NCBI GenBank assembly: GCA_030037575.1
Contig: JASHRB010000425.1
Coordinates: forward strand, 1 to 11,468
DNA length: 11,468 nucleotides
Reading direction: 5' to 3'
Origin: Candidatus Sulfotelmatobacter sp.
GTDB lineage: Bacteria; Acidobacteriota; Terriglobia; Terriglobales; Acidobacteriaceae
Under the pieces are notes generated by a model, which saw nothing but the letters and a program-made list of their open reading frames with translations, ran no database searches and was not told the origin of the DNA. Positions 712 through 6,855 of the stretch are shown in pieces. The position numbers and the translations under genes are program-made. Position 1 is the stretch's first letter. Each line of letters begins with the position of its first letter.

Positions 712-1227
712 ATGCAGTGTGAGCAGAGTGCTACGGCTATGAAAACGGTTGCCAGTGGCGGCAACGGTCATGTGGAGCAAGTCATGAGGCAGGCCCACGA
801 GGAGTTGCGCCAGCTTTTGCAGCAGCGTGCCGACGTCATGCGGCGCATTGGAACGATTAAGCAGACCATTGCCGGCCTGGCTAACCTTTTTGGCGATGAA
901 GTCCTGAGCGACGATTTGCTGGAGCTGGTGGATCGTAAGAGTTGCGGACGGCAGCCCGGTTTCACAAAAGCCTGCCGCATGGTTTTGATGGATGCCAAAC
1001 GCGCTCTTACCGCGCGTGAGGTGTGTGATTGCATCCGCCAAAAGGCCGCCTCAATGCTTGCCCGGCACAAAGACCCCATGGCGTCCGTCACCACCGTGCT
1101 CAATCGTCTGGTGGCCTATGGAGAGGCCACTCCGGTGCTTCTCGATAACGGCCGCCGCGCCTGGAAGTGGGTTGCCGATTGCGAGGCCGGAGTACAGGCG
1201 GAGTTGATGGCATCCGCTCCCCAGTAA
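712..1227 (+). CDS. Coiled-coil / winged-helix-like protein of unknown function
   Basis: This 171-residue soluble protein has no signal peptide or membrane helix. Residues about 20-58 are charged, heptad-like and Glu/Gln/Arg-rich (VEQVMRQAHEELRQLLQQR...), which predicts a helical coiled coil. Residues about 84-155 look like a winged helix-turn-helix: a helix FTKACRMVLMDA, then ALTAREVCDCI (typical of 'opening the way' helices), a putative recognition helix DPMASVTTVLNRLVAYGEA, and a wing-like strand pair ending NGRRAWKWV. This suggests a dimeric or oligomeric DNA-binding or protein-binding regulator, but no named family can be assigned from the sequence alone. It carries four cysteines (C3, C88, C105, C107, and a fifth at C157) without a clear metal-site spacing. 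It stands alone, with intergenic gaps on both sides, and the start is supported by GGAGGG at 700-705. The DNA-binding role is inference; that it is a real gene is fairly safe. Confidence 0.75.
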   Translation: MQCEQSATAMKTVASGGNGHVEQVMRQAHEELRQLLQQRADVMRRIGTIKQTIAGLANLFGDEVLSDDLLELVDRKSCGRQPGFTKACRMVLMDAKRALTAREVCDCIRQKAASMLARHKDPMASVTTVLNRLVAYGEATPVLLDNGRRAWKWVADCEAGVQAELMASAPQ

Positions 1228-1498: not shown

Positions 1499-3985
1499 AT
1501 GTCTACGAAAATCGGTCACTTCGAAATACAGAGTGAACTGGGAAAATCGGCGACGGGAGCGGTATATAAGGCGAACGATTCGCAATCGAACCAGACGGTC
1601 GCTCTGAAGGCAATTCGACTTTCCGCTTTCGGCGCTCGCGCCGACGAATTAGAGAAGTGCCTTGTCGCAGAAGCAGAAGCCACGAAGGTTCTCAGCCACT
1701 CGAACCTCGCTCCGGTTTTTGGCGCGGGAAAATTCGACGGCCAGTTTTGCGCCGCGATGGAGTATATCCAAGGCAACAGCATTGCCACCATGCTCTCACA
1801 CAAGGAGGGGTTTTCGATCTGGGACCTTCTCGATATTGGCCGGCAAGTCTGCAGTGGGCTCGATCATGCGCAATCCCACGATGTTGTTCACTACAGCCTG
1901 GAGCCGGCCAAAATCATGTGCGGCTGGGACGGAACGGTCCGCGTTCTGGGATACGGGGTTTCGAGCGTGGGCAAATTTACCGAACAAATGCCCGATGTCC
2001 CGCTGATTCTGCACTACATGTCGCCCGAGCAGATTCGCGGCGAGAATGTCGATGCGCGCTCGAATCTTTTTAGCCTGGGCGCGATTTTTTATGAAATGGT
2101 TACCGACAGCAAAGCCTTCAATGGCTCGGACGCCGGAGCATTGCGCCAGGCCATTCTCGAAGGGGCCCTGCCCCCTCCGTCGCTCGTGAATCAGAAGGTT
2201 CATCCCGGCCTGAGCGCCCTGATTATGAAGGCGCTCTCGAAAGATCCGGCCGACCGCTACCAAAACGGAAGGCAACTGCTCGACGATCTCGAGAAATGCA
2301 AAGAGTCCAAGCCACAGGTGAAGGCAGCCGCCAAAGGCACTGTCGTGTCCGATGCCGTGAAGGCTGCGAACCAGGCGAAATTTGTCGGAGCTGGCTCTCG
2401 CCAGCCTGCGCCAGCGGCGGCGCCCGCTCCGGCTCAACCGAAACCAGCCGCAAAACCGGCGACAGCAGGAATTCCGGGCAAGGCGGCCGCGGCAGCGGCC
2501 GGCGCGCAGGCTCCGTCTTCAATTCCGGCTCCGAGGCCGTCGGCTTCCAATCCATTTGCCGGCGGTCCGGCAACGCCTAACCGTCCAGCCCCGCCGGCGG
2601 CTTCGATGTCCTCCGCGGTCGAGGAAGCTGCGGAGGTCGAAGCGCCAAAGATTGCCGTCGATCCCATGATGGCCGAAGGCGCGCCCGCGCGCAGCGGGAC
2701 GAGTTTCTCGGACATGACAGAATTGCCTCCGTTGAAGGAGGTCACCGTGGCTCCGCCGCTGGCTCACCCGGCAGCGCAACAACCCGCTCCGCAAGCGCCT
2801 GGATTCACCAAGTTCGAACCGGAGACCGAAAGAGCAAACGTTCAGGCGAGCGAAGTTGCCCAGAAGGCGATCAAGGAGATCAAGAACGTCCCGCCGCAGT
2901 TGATGATTTATTCGATCGCAGCCGCGGCCGTCGTGATTCTGATCATTGCCGTCGCCCTGATGTGGCACATCAACAGTTTGAATACCGATAGCGATACTTC
3001 GCAGCCGACGACTGCGCAACTAGCGCAACCCGCCCCGGCCCAACCCGCGCCTGCCCCAGTGCAAGCTCCGGCTCAGAGCCAGCCCGTTGAAGCACAGCCG
3101 GTCCAGCAGCAACCAGCTCAGGCGCAGCCTGAACAGCCTGAGGCGGGTCCGGCACAACCGGAACCAGAACCCGTCGAACCGGCGGAGCCTGTCCGTTCGC
3201 GAGGCCACAAGAATGCCGCCCTTGCAAAAGGCAAGAACTCCAAGAAAAAAGGATTTGGAGCGACTGCGGTGGTTCCTCCAGGGCAGATGGCGCTGGACTC
3301 AACTCCGCAAGGAGCGCAAGTGCAGGTGGATGGAAAAACGGATCCATCTTGGGTGACTCCATTTGCTTTGTCGGGACTCACTCCCGGGCAGCATTCGATC
3401 ACCATAAGCAAACCTGGTTTTTCGTCGGAAACGCGTACGGTTGATATCACTTCCGGTGGAAGGTCCTTCGTGCAGAGTCGTCTCGCGCAGTTGATGGCCA
3501 CGCTGGCGGTGACGAGCACTCCTTCGGGAGCCAGCGTCTACGTTGACGGCAAGAACACAAGCCGCGTGACTCCGGCGCAGATCCCGGTGAATAAGGGCCA
3601 GCATGTTGTTCTGGTGCGCAAAAGCGGCTATATCGACGAAACGACCGCGGCCCAGTTTACCCTGGGGCAAACAGTCAGCTTCTCGCCAACGCTGCGCGAA
3701 CTGGGCAATGTGGACGATATTCGAACCGTCGGCAAAATGCACAAGTTGTTCGGCAATAAAGAAGTGTCCGGCATGGGCATCGTGAGCGTCAAGACCCAGC
3801 CCAAGGGTGCGCAAGTTGCGGTTAATCAGCACATGCTTGACAAGGATTCTCCCGTGGAATTCGCTCTCGATCCCGGCAACTACGAGGTCGATATCACGCT
3901 TAGCGGTTATGCTCCCATTCACAAGATCATCACTGTGGACAAAGGCGGCAAAGCGGTGATCGACGAAGTTATGCAGCGCGAGTGA
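1499..3985 (+). CDS. Membrane Ser/Thr pseudokinase with three periplasmic PEGA repeats
   Basis: The protein has 828 residues. Residues 8-265 are a Hanks-type kinase fold: partial Gly loop GKSATG (15-20), VALK lysine K37, helix-C Glu about E58, MSPEQ (174-178), and R253 near the domain end. The catalytic residues are missing: HRDLKPxN is H131-Y-S-L-E-P-A-K138, DFG is G151-Y-G153, and the usual D of the RSDxFSLG segment is N189. It should therefore not catalyse phosphotransfer, though K37 and E58 could still allow nucleotide binding. Residues 270-460 are an Ala/Pro linker, followed by one membrane helix (about 466-489), a Pro/Gln/Ala linker (500-565) and a basic patch (567-585). Three PEGA repeats follow (about 596-663, 664-733, 757-828), each with STP-GA-V-VDG-like and PG-H/Y-I-x-K/L-x-G-(F/Y) signatures. 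PEGA domains are usually extracytoplasmic, so the topology is N-in/C-out. A GAGG at 1485-1488 is a modest ribosome-binding site. A scaffold or sensor role is inference. Confidence 0.93.
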   Translation: MSTKIGHFEIQSELGKSATGAVYKANDSQSNQTVALKAIRLSAFGARADELEKCLVAEAEATKVLSHSNLAPVFGAGKFDGQFCAAMEYIQGNSIATMLSHKEGFSIWDLLDIGRQVCSGLDHAQSHDVVHYSLEPAKIMCGWDGTVRVLGYGVSSVGKFTEQMPDVPLILHYMSPEQIRGENVDARSNLFSLGAIFYEMVTDSKAFNGSDAGALRQAILEGALPPPSLVNQKVHPGLSALIMKALSKDPADRYQNGRQLLDDLEKCKESKPQVKAAAKGTVVSDAVKAANQAKFVGAGSRQPAPAAAPAPAQPKPAAKPATAGIPGKAAAAAAGAQAPSSIPAPRPSASNPFAGGPATPNRPAPPAASMSSAVEEAAEVEAPKIAVDPMMAEGAPARSGTSFSDMTELPPLKEVTVAPPLAHPAAQQPAPQAPGFTKFEPETERANVQASEVAQKAIKEIKNVPPQLMIYSIAAAAVVILIIAVALMWHINSLNTDSDTSQPTTAQLAQPAPAQPAPAPVQAPAQSQPVEAQPVQQQPAQAQPEQPEAGPAQPEPEPVEPAEPVRSRGHKNAALAKGKNSKKKGFGATAVVPPGQMALDSTPQGAQVQVDGKTDPSWVTPFALSGLTPGQHSITISKPGFSSETRTVDITSGGRSFVQSRLAQLMATLAVTSTPSGASVYVDGKNTSRVTPAQIPVNKGQHVVLVRKSGYIDETTAAQFTLGQTVSFSPTLRELGNVDDIRTVGKMHKLFGNKEVSGMGIVSVKTQPKGAQVAVNQHMLDKDSPVEFALDPGNYEVDITLSGYAPIHKIITVDKGGKAVIDEVMQRE

Positions 3986-4343: not shown

Positions 4344-6128
4344 CTATTGCTGCGGCAGCTTGAAGTTGACTGTGATTTGCGTCTGGATATCGACAGGCTC
4401 ACCGTTGAGCAGATACGGTTTGTACTTCCACTGCTTCACCGCTTCGATGGCTGCCCGTGCCAGTTGCTTGTCTCCGCTGAGAACTTTGGCTTCGGAAATG
4501 TCCCCGTTCTTTGAGACGGTCGCCATGATCTCAACCGCGCCCTCAGTGTGCATGTCGATTGCCGCTCGCGGATAGACGGGCTGCACTTGCTTGATCAGAA
4601 GCCCTCGAGACAATCCCTGAGAAACGACGAGTTTCTCCAAGACCGGAGTCGGCGTGTTGCCCGGACCGATTAAATTGGGAAGGGTTCCGCCCGAGCCAGC
4701 GGTTGCCGTGATGCTCAAAGCCGGGGCATCGGCGCCCTCCACCGTTTTTGCCGCTGGTTTGGCATGGTCGTTGTTGATCTTCATGGCATCCGGCGCATCG
4801 CTGCTGGCGACCAGCGTGCTTTCTTGTTCAGGAGCAGCCGATGGTTTTTCCCCGGCTCCAGTGTCGGCCGCGAGCTTACGCGCAGCCGGCTTCGCAGCTT
4901 TCGTCGGCGCTGGAGTTTCTGCCGTTACCGCCTGTGGCTTTTGCGCTTCGGGAATTGCCGTTTCAGACGGCTGATTCTCCGACGAGGGTGAAGCGGTGAT
5001 GGGATTGGGCGTGGACGCGTCCGCCTGAATTCCAGCCGGAATCGTCGCAGGCGGCCTCCGGGTTTGCGCAGGAGCAGGTGCCGGGAACAATGATTTCAAC
5101 GGATTCCATTTCATCGTCCATGCCGCGTAGCCGCCGGCGGCCGCAATCAGCCCCAGGGCCACCGCTACGAGCAGCCCGTTCTTACTTCCCCTCTGGTTGC
5201 TGGCCGGCTTTGCGGCCCCGACCATGCCCCCGAAAGTCAGTGTAGGAGCCGAAGCCGACGATGAGCCGAGAGCCTTAGTCAGCTCCGGCTTAAACCGGTG
5301 AGCGGCGCCATCGGAAGATTTGCCGTCGACGGACGTCCCGGGTTTCGCTTCCCGTGCCGGCGCGGGAGCGGACGCGGCAAAACCAGAAGAAGCAGAGCGC
5401 TCAGAAGCCGCAGAAAGCGCAGAAGCCGCCGACGCTACAGGCACAGAAGAGCGGCTTGGAACTGCTGCGCTCCGCCGCTCGGTGGGGACCGCAGTCCCGG
5501 CTGCCGCTTGTTCGATCGAAATGGCTTCCGCCTCAGACTCCGCCGCGATTTGGACGGGTGCCGATGCCGTGATTGCCGGCTGTGCCGCCGGATTTTCTAC
5601 GGCAATCACGCGTGCCGCCACCCTTGGCGGGACAGCCGCAGACGCCGGCACTTTGGCGTCGCTTGGGCTTGCGGCCCGGGCAACCGGGTTCGTCCCTGTC
5701 GGTGCCGGCACTTTCGCAGGCGAAATCGGAGCAGCCATGCCTGCGGCTTTCGCTCCTTCGTTCTTGCGTAACAATCCGCGGGCCACGCGCAACGTGCCCT
5801 TCGCCTGTTCCACGTTGATCGGCTTGGTCAGAACCAGATTGGCGCCGATGCGGAATGCTTTGGCCACTCCAGCCTGTCCTTCGACCACGGCGACGGCCAG
5901 AGCCCCCTGGTTGTTCGGTGCACTCCGCGCGCTCTTGAACAGCAACGTGGCATTCTGCTCGTTATCGCAGTCAACCACAACCGCATCAAAACGCTCGCCC
6001 ATCAGCTTTTTCACGGCGCCGAACGGTTCGCTGCAGGGGACGACGCTAAAATCCAGTTCGCCGAGAACCTGCATGACCGTACGAGCTGTTTTTTCCTCAG
6101 GGCAGAATAGGAGAGCTTGGTAACTCAT
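4344..6128 (-). CDS. REC-like / transmembrane / TonB C-terminal domain fusion protein
   Basis: The protein has 594 residues from the chosen ATG at 6128. Residues about 4-122 resemble a response-regulator receiver: hydrophobic strands, D53 in VVVDCD at the phospho-acceptor position, and the conserved K102 in LTKPI. The N-terminal acidic pair that binds Mg2+ is absent (LLFCPEE instead of a VDD-type end), so phosphorylation is doubtful. Residues 123-315 form an Ala/Pro/Ser-rich linker, then one membrane helix (about 318-338), a second low-complexity linker, and a TonB C-terminal domain (about 508-592) with QPVYPRAA, a G-x-V-x-I/V-x-A-x-V-x-x-x-G core and AIEAVKQWKYKP. TonB-C domains usually contact outer-membrane receptors from the periplasm. 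Here the usual short cytoplasmic tail is replaced by a signalling-type domain. In-frame ATGs at 6140, 6164 and 6281 exist, but the receiver fold begins at 6128 and a possible promoter overlaps 6140. No exbBD genes are adjacent. Confidence 0.88.
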   Translation of the reverse strand: MSYQALLFCPEEKTARTVMQVLGELDFSVVPCSEPFGAVKKLMGERFDAVVVDCDNEQNATLLFKSARSAPNNQGALAVAVVEGQAGVAKAFRIGANLVLTKPINVEQAKGTLRVARGLLRKNEGAKAAGMAAPISPAKVPAPTGTNPVARAASPSDAKVPASAAVPPRVAARVIAVENPAAQPAITASAPVQIAAESEAEAISIEQAAAGTAVPTERRSAAVPSRSSVPVASAASALSAASERSASSGFAASAPAPAREAKPGTSVDGKSSDGAAHRFKPELTKALGSSSASAPTLTFGGMVGAAKPASNQRGSKNGLLVAVALGLIAAAGGYAAWTMKWNPLKSLFPAPAPAQTRRPPATIPAGIQADASTPNPITASPSSENQPSETAIPEAQKPQAVTAETPAPTKAAKPAARKLAADTGAGEKPSAAPEQESTLVASSDAPDAMKINNDHAKPAAKTVEGADAPALSITATAGSGGTLPNLIGPGNTPTPVLEKLVVSQGLSRGLLIKQVQPVYPRAAIDMHTEGAVEIMATVSKNGDISEAKVLSGDKQLARAAIEAVKQWKYKPYLLNGEPVDIQTQITVNFKLPQQ

Positions 6129-6138
6129 AGTTAAGGCC

Positions 6139-6167
6139 ATCCTAGGTACAGCCGTAAGGTGCATCAA
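6139..6167 (-). promoter_or_regulatory. Possible sigma70-type promoter of the REC-TonB gene
   Basis: On the minus strand TTGATG (6167-6162) and TAGGAT (6144-6139) are separated by exactly 17 bp; each matches the consensus at 4 of 6 positions. Transcription would start only a few bases before the ATG at 6128, giving a leaderless or nearly leaderless message. That would agree with the absence of a clear ribosome-binding site and would exclude the longer starts. It is a weak prediction. Confidence 0.3.
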
Positions 6168-6258
6168 GTTACGCTGGTAATTCGCCTGGGGCCGGAATGG
6201 CGTTGCTGGAACTGGTTTCGGGAGGATCGCCCATGCAGCCGGCGAATAGAATGCGATC

Positions 6259-6855
6259 ATGCGTATTCCGCTCTGGCTCAAAGTGTTCTGGACAATTTGG
6301 GTGATGGTGTGGGCCCCGATTTATTGGCGGCAATACGGCGCGCAGAATTTTCTCTTTTTTTGCGACATGGGCAATGTGTTCATCGCTGTGGGACTGTGGA
6401 CGGAAAGTGCTCTCATCTTTTCCTGGCAGGCTTGCGGGTTGCTGCTGTTTCAAACTCTGTTCACCCTGGACTTGGCCGGTGCCCTTGCGAGCGGTCGGCA
6501 TCCCATCGGCGGAACGCAATACATGTTCGATCCGCATATTCCGCTGACGATTCGATTGCTGAGTTTGTTTCATGTGCTGACCCCGCCGCTTTTGTTGTGG
6601 GCCGTTTGGCGATTGGGCTATGATGCGCGCGGGTGGAAGCTGCAAACTCTGATCACGTGGATGGTGATTCCGATAAATTATTTCTGGCGTCCACAGTTCG
6701 ATGTGAATTGGGCGCGAGGTCTGTTCTTTCGTGAGCAGCGCCTCATGCCGGGAATTGTTTATGTGTTGATTTATCTAATTGCGGTTCCGGCCGGGATTTA
6801 TTTTCCCACGCATTTGCTTCTTGCCCGGCTCGCTCGCCGATCGCCGTCAGGCTAA
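6259..6855 (+). CDS. Polytopic membrane protein of unknown function
   Basis: The protein has 198 residues and is very rich in Trp, Phe and Leu. About six membrane helices are visible, at residues about 5-22, 31-48, 50-75, 97-118, 126-143 and 162-184. Between helices lie likely conserved polar segments: FCDMGN (34-39), a GRHPIGGTQYMFDP loop (79-92) with H82 and D91, and H105. The start at 6259 has no good Shine-Dalgarno; GGAGGA at about 6220 is too far away. The gene is divergent from the REC-TonB gene (130-bp gap), and its stop TAA shares bases with the stop of the opposing mscS gene (CTAA, 6852-6855). I recognise no named family. The overall pattern resembles uncharacterised 'membrane-associated' proteins, but an enzymatic or transport role cannot be given from the sequence. 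Confidence 0.8.
   Translation: MRIPLWLKVFWTIWVMVWAPIYWRQYGAQNFLFFCDMGNVFIAVGLWTESALIFSWQACGLLLFQTLFTLDLAGALASGRHPIGGTQYMFDPHIPLTIRLLSLFHVLTPPLLLWAVWRLGYDARGWKLQTLITWMVIPINYFWRPQFDVNWARGLFFREQRLMPGIVYVLIYLIAVPAGIYFPTHLLLARLARRSPSG

Follow-up and report, generated by a model that had tools for sequence, protein, structure and literature searches.

A fixed PEGA-linked pseudokinase family related to active receptor-type kinases of Acidobacteriota

The window, the whole stretch of 11,468 nucleotides analysed here from a Candidatus Sulfotelmatobacter sp. (Acidobacteriota), raises the question of whether a protein that has the fold of a receptor kinase without its catalytic residues is a kinase in decay, or whether it has been kept for a role other than phosphotransfer. 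An earlier note, made from the DNA alone, had proposed a pseudokinase that lost all of its phosphotransfer residues under selection and that acts as a scaffold linked across the membrane to PEGA domains. Comparing homologous sequences, we find that purifying selection maintains a PEGA-linked kinase fold that has become fixed in a form devoid of catalytic residues, and from this we infer that the protein would signal by conformation and binding, in a scaffold or allosteric role.

Domain layout and catalytic residues

The gene occupies positions 1499..3985 of the plus strand, on which all features of the protein described below also lie, and its open frame of 828 codons, as previously noted, was confirmed. 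Residues 8-255 (1520..2263) match Pfam Pkinase at 106.8 bits (cut-off 31.7) over the length of a bilobal Hanks-type, PknB-like domain, and a structure model of this domain is a confident kinase fold. An Ala/Pro-rich linker follows at about residues 271-450 (2309..2848; pLDDT <50), presumably in the cytoplasm, and then a predicted transmembrane helix at residues 466-496 (2894..2986), recognized by its hydrophobic sequence and as a helix in the model. The C-terminal part consists of three PEGA repeats at about residues 595-660, 667-733 and 759-828 (3281..3982), which place the protein among PEGA-domain proteins (125.4 bits in three stretches; Pfam cut-off 20.8). The proposed linkage of kinase and PEGA domains thus agrees with Pfam, which finds both, and with a full-length model that is weak overall (pLDDT 52.3) and contains the helix 466-496 and beta-rich repeats at 595-733.

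The segment examined in the earlier note, 1889-1957, encodes residues 131-153, HYSLEPAKIMCGWDGTVRVLGYG. It aligns without gaps to HRDVKPANIM...KIMDFG of the sister kinases, with Asp replaced by Ser133, Lys by Glu135 and Asn by Lys138 in the rewritten catalytic loop HYSLEPAKIM (1889..1918), and with GYG (1949..1957, residues 151-153) where DFG is expected. The three residues by which an active Hanks kinase is recognized (HRD Asp, catalytic-loop Asn and DFG Asp) are here Ser133, Lys138 and Gly151. Asn189 (2063..2065) stands for the αF Asp, and the middle Gly of the glycine-rich loop (1541..1558, residues 15-20), Gly in 16/16 active sisters, is Ser17. A further change, absent from the earlier list, lies in the activation segment (1958..2029, residues 154-177, ending at MSPE, with a helix at 155-163 in the model), in which the GTP part of the active sisters' GTPxYMxPEQ is replaced in the pseudokinases.

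These residues were followed in an alignment of the best 120 of 3565 homologs with E<=1e-3, all 120 of which were aligned. Ser133, Leu134, Glu135, Pro136, Met140 and Gly153 occur in 120/120, as do the beta3 Lys37 (1607..1609) and the alphaC Glu58 (1670..1672); Lys138, Asn189 and Ser17 occur in 119/120 each. Asp is found at position 133 in 0/120, and position 151 is Gly in 93, Ser in 27 and Asp in none. All residues named in the earlier note (K37, E58, S133, E135, K138, G151-Y152-G153, MSPEQ and N189, together with the lost Gly) were read correctly. The statement that every phosphotransfer residue has gone holds for S133, E135, K138, GYG and N189 and is overstated for the K37/E58 pair, whose invariance among these best 120 homologs means that not all ATP-site residues have disappeared. 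According to the accessible text of PMC12599244, a pseudokinase is defined by sequence as lacking at least one of beta3-Lys, HRD-Asp and DFG-Asp; the window protein lacks two of the three, with beta3-Lys present.

Origin among active PEGA kinases

The closest active relatives are PEGA kinases from sister genera, such as those at L191, L198 and L202, which are phylogenetic sisters of the window protein, homologous over its whole length (38% for L191, residues 4-825), and which, unlike it, keep HRDxKPAN, DFG, GTPxYMxPEQ and RSD. In a tree of 105 kinase domains from which the catalytic columns had been removed, 57 pseudokinase rows form one clade (100/100), nested in a clade of 61 rows (99/99) that comprises all 61 rows without HRD Asp. 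This clade is in turn nested in one of 77 rows (100/96), the remaining 16 of which are active PEGA-type kinases. Part-dead copies stand at the base of the pseudokinase group, and the active PEGA kinases adjoin it. It should be noted that support is weak for several inner branches and that L210 is a long branch. The minimum numbers of changes on the tree are one each for the HRD Asp and the αF Asp, two each for the DFG Asp and for Asn/Lys, and four for Lys/Glu/other. On this count of fewest changes, the HRD Asp would have been lost once, beside active PEGA kinases.

Arranged by motif, the loci grade from active sisters through part-dead copies to the fixed family. Active sisters (e.g., L191, L197, L198 and L202) carry HRDxKP(A/S)N, DFG, and RSD or RTD. 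Part-dead copies show mixtures such as HRNFKPGN/DYG in L186, HPNLRPAN/DFG in L196, HPELRPGN/DFG in L204 and HGNLVPWN/DFG in L210. Within the clade, the HRD-Asp is absent in 57/57 rows and the DFG-Asp in 56/57, and L179 retains DFG together with SLEP. Glu135 and Lys138 are each present in 56/57 rows, L193 being the exception for both. Position 133 is Ser in 53/57 rows, and the remaining four have Gly, Ala, Thr or Arg there; Asp does not occur. Since Glu135 and Lys138 are nearly fixed while position 133 varies, the Glu-Lys pair appears to have been selected in its own right, beyond mere loss of the Asp.

At two of the five basal part-dead loci, L233 (3370-8496, minus strand) and L234 (3349-8722, minus strand), the part-dead gene stands in tandem with another kinase gene in which HRD and DFG are preserved, a possible pseudokinase-kinase pair. 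The adjacency of part-dead copies and active kinases hints at a possible descent of the dead family from the partner of an active kinase.

Gene neighbours, candidate partners and proposed role

Neighbouring genes were counted by eye from tblastn matches at 52 pseudokinase and 15 active-sister loci, with families named by Pfam; L255, a duplicate of L038, was excluded, and loci were retained even where upstream sequence was short or missing. A gene for an FHA-GAF-class III cyclase lies downstream on the same strand in 8/15 active loci and in 0/52 pseudokinase loci. Conversely, a divergent permease of MacB_PCD/FtsX type lies within 6 kb upstream in 33/52 pseudokinase loci and 0/15 active ones, accompanied within the available stretch by an HlyD-type adaptor in 26 of the 33 and by an ABC ATPase in 19. 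A convergent gene for a TonB_C protein follows in 19/52 pseudokinase loci, the window included, and in one of the 15 active loci (L230, a weak match of 53 bits). Fisher values on the tblastn counts, with kinship between loci ignored, are 8e-6 and 1e-6. Counts by clustering were 29/48 (divergent permease), 18/44 (convergent TonB_C) and 0/44 (FHA-cyclase) for pseudokinase loci, and 0/14, 0/15 and 7/15, respectively, for active loci.

In the window itself, the convergent neighbour (4344..6281, minus strand) joins a receiver-like N-terminus to the Pfam TonB_C domain; a profile of 17 relatives reached solved receiver domains at E values of 0.017-0.096 only. The TonB_C-type neighbour is present in two copies at L061, L062, L240 and L247. 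Upstream lies a gene for a conserved protein of 171 aa without a Pfam match (712..1227, plus strand), whose cluster (family 7) occurs in 7/73 loci, the window included. The exporter does not adjoin the gene in 19/52 pseudokinase loci, among them the window, and the window and some near relatives (L031-L033, L042 and L257) have other genes next door instead. L253, a divergent member of the clade with the motif HKRLHPAN, already has the exporter, so the shift in neighbours tracks the clade and not only the final motif. At the basal part-dead loci L232, L233, L234, L236 and L237, tblastn found none of the cyclase, exporter and TonB_C neighbours.

The order of active PEGA-type kinase and then FHA-GAF-class III cyclase was observed at L218, L220, L221, L222, L223, L224, L227 and L229, and this pair likely constitutes a pathway from kinase to cyclic nucleotide. 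A gene for a cyclic-nucleotide-binding protein was seen some 2.4-4.4 kb downstream of the pseudokinase, on the same strand, at L061, L062, L247, L249 and L250 (more weakly at L036 and L243).

A search for an active partner kinase covered 22 chosen genomes, 18 of them from the pseudokinase clade. At least five of the 22 (G439, G503, G458, G265 and G411) have matches to an active sister below 1e-100. Among the matches listed, another match below this value occurs in just one of the 18, G411, whose kinase, L214, does not fall within the active-PEGA clade on the tree. Matches to the kinase domain only, at 43-50% identity and outside the tree, were found in several other genomes (e.g., G420:C16 and G419:C67), and a near-active relative may be among them. 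Each of the 22 genomes holds 7 to 33 matches below 1e-45; hence no single partner can be named. Candidate partners are the exporter, for which the link is one of position only, the TonB_C protein, and any of the numerous further kinases that these genomes encode.

With moderate confidence, we favour a scenario in which a receptor kinase of PknB type in this acidobacterial family (kinase, linker, transmembrane segment, PEGA) gave up its catalytic Asp in a single event and came to use its kinase domain as a fixed adaptor, perhaps with metal-free nucleotide binding. Lying outside the inner membrane, the PEGA domains would sense or bind a ligand in the envelope, and the cytoplasmic pseudokinase would relay this state through binding to a partner, which may be an active Hanks kinase or parts of the neighbouring export or TonB machinery. 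Less surely, the rewritten loop could bind nucleotide without metal, with Lys138, at the position of the Mg-binding Asn, taking the place of the cation, Glu135 balancing Lys138, and ATP acting, as in STRAD-alpha, as a ligand that governs conformation. STRAD-alpha binds ATP without a cation, which is replaced by a His at the Asn171 position and an Arg from GLR (PMC4718504, accessible text), and it thus resembles the window protein in having a cationic residue at that position and no Asp in DFG. The comparison with this eukaryotic LKB1 adaptor is one of analogy, not kinship, and where Lys138 lies does no more than suggest cation-independent binding. The eroded glycine-rich loop counts against ATP binding. 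In the accessible part of PMC12599244, pseudokinases degraded in all three motifs are described as nearly always without ATP binding, and the window protein differs from these in its intact beta3-Lys motif. A more specific version of this scenario, in which a selected Glu135/Lys138 metal-free sensor lets ATP and a periplasmic signal together gate the MacB-type exporter or TonB-like protein, and in which the FHA-cyclase phospho-pathway gave way to transport control as catalysis was lost, we regard as improbable.

Possible, though we judge it unlikely, is that the kinase fold does not bind nucleotide any longer and serves purely for docking, as the structural anchor of a membrane complex. The alteration of glycine-rich loop, metal site and catalytic loop alike would be expected of such a protein, as would the position of a membrane protein beside export genes in 33/52 loci, and a precedent exists in EssB/YukC, a transmembrane pseudokinase with a structural role in type VII secretion (PMC12599244, as far as its text is accessible). 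In the same text the VAIK motif of EssB is given as LDMR, whereas the VALK of the window protein is intact and its Lys37 occurs in 120/120 of the best homologs; EssB/YukC has type VII secretion as its partner, and the neighbours seen at the pseudokinase loci are ABC exporter and TonB_C genes. The invariance of the beta3-Lys/alphaC-Glu pair in these homologs, for which there is no obvious need without a nucleotide site, speaks against pure docking.

Rather doubtful is an atypical active enzyme, in which the Glu135/Lys138 loop would carry out another or a metal-independent chemistry in the manner of CASK, SelO or SidJ. Such an enzyme would fit the almost absolute conservation of Glu135 and Lys138 and the retention of Lys37 and Glu58, and CASK functions without a DFG Asp (PMC4718504, accessible text). 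However, HRD-Asp, the metal-binding Asn and Asp, the αF Asp and, in the activation segment, GTP have all gone together in the window protein. The precedents themselves also count against this reading, as CASK has kept its HRD Asp, and both SelO and SidJ have kept metal-binding acidic residues.

Selection, spread and meaning of the family

Altogether 94/274 positions of the kinase domain are at least 99% conserved in the best 120 homologs, S17, S133, E135, K138 and N189 included and position 151 excluded. A protein search found a match in 44/45 genomes of the genus and in 20/20 of those of good quality; some matches are fragmentary or shortened, and no internal stop occurs among the matches listed. 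A strict motif pattern was found in exactly one place in 36/45 genus genomes and in 2/396 genomes sampled across the phylum, both in the window's genus, and a looser one in 11/399 genomes of the class; these 11 all belong to the family of the window. Because motif patterns miss diverged carriers, these low counts beyond the genus do not prove absence. Indeed, a search of the family gave matches below 1e-42 in 44/80 genomes, active kinases counted in, with relatives in other genera.

Nei-Gojobori dN/dS was computed for 19 pairs with kinase dS <0.8 drawn from 21 full-length coding sequences, none of the pairs involving the window's own sequence. Median values were low in the kinase domain (0.081) and the transmembrane segment (0.074), 0.109 in the PEGA part (residues 594-828), and 0.234 (residues 275-465) and 0.219 in the two linkers, so the dead kinase domain is constrained at least as much as the sensor domains. 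In a wider set of pairs the medians were 0.276 for active sisters (48 pairs) and 0.107 for pseudokinases (98 pairs), values that cannot be used as a contrast given the high dS, and the three top active values displayed all involve L203.

The earlier note had proposed to look for orthologs with the same substitutions, random ones speaking for decay, and to compute dN/dS of the kinase domain; the homolog alignment and the locus motifs show shared substitutions, and the 19 pairs a low dN/dS. These data support the view that selection, and not decay, has maintained the altered residues. A dying kinase gene becoming a pseudogene is accordingly a very improbable description of this family. Decay did occur in a side branch, as the basal part-dead copy L237 (6191-8302, minus strand; HRRLTPHG, LDFA) is interrupted by a stop codon, and G414, which is 85% complete, is the one genus genome without a match; against these stand the near-universal presence of matches without stops among those listed, the dN/dS range of 0.04-0.15 across the 19 close pairs and the identical substitutions across the best 120 homologs, and on these grounds we reject it. 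Still less credible is an ordinary kinase whose catalytic Asp was misplaced by misalignment, in favour of which nothing was found and which we also reject, because the match to the sisters is ungapped, the predicted fold is confident, and no displaced Asp was found near the loop, where D144, the only invariant Asp close by in the best 120 homologs, aligns with an xDG turn that L191 and L198, both active sisters, also have (L202 has Asn there). Hence, with catalytic residues lost in an ancestor and kept altered by selection, the domain is probably a switch or docking module and not an enzyme.

Among known systems, the PASTA-type kinases PknB, PrkC and Stk1 share the fold and are the top PDB matches of the window protein by sequence and structure. 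PknB is, like the window protein, a receptor with a single transmembrane segment. These kinases have PASTA outside where the window protein has PEGA, and the latter lacks the catalytic Asp, the Asn and the DFG Asp; it reaches 187.8 bits against NCBIfam PknB_PASTA_kin (NF033483; cut-off 450), and Pfam finds no PASTA. According to the accessible text of PMC12599244, functions have been established for few bacterial pseudokinases; it treats seven annotated families (ActPs1-3, GLW, CP1, DYD and DLHK) that are likewise bacterial Ser/Thr kinase folds minus catalytic motifs, several of them membrane-bound. In that text PEGA, Acidobacter and Terriglobi do not occur, and HxSLEPxK is not among the motifs tabulated for pathogen examples. 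DLHK is described there as keeping the HRD Asp, with a degraded ATP-binding motif and no transmembrane segment, whereas the window protein has Ser133, a retained Lys37 and a predicted transmembrane helix.

Bacterial pseudokinases are already known, and the present one is a new, well-defined family. A full-text literature search found no paper on a PEGA pseudokinase; as preprints and most subscription papers lie outside its coverage, the clade may have been catalogued earlier. Where the homologs have database names, these are serine/threonine protein kinase, PEGA domain-containing protein or hypothetical protein, and with several records bearing the first of these names, tallies of active kinases by name would be inflated. 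The active sisters, part-dead copies and fixed dead family form a natural series on which a single loss of the catalytic Asp has been mapped, with different gene neighbours on either side of it. This series, together with the mapped loss, makes the transition from kinase to adaptor testable in environmental bacteria.
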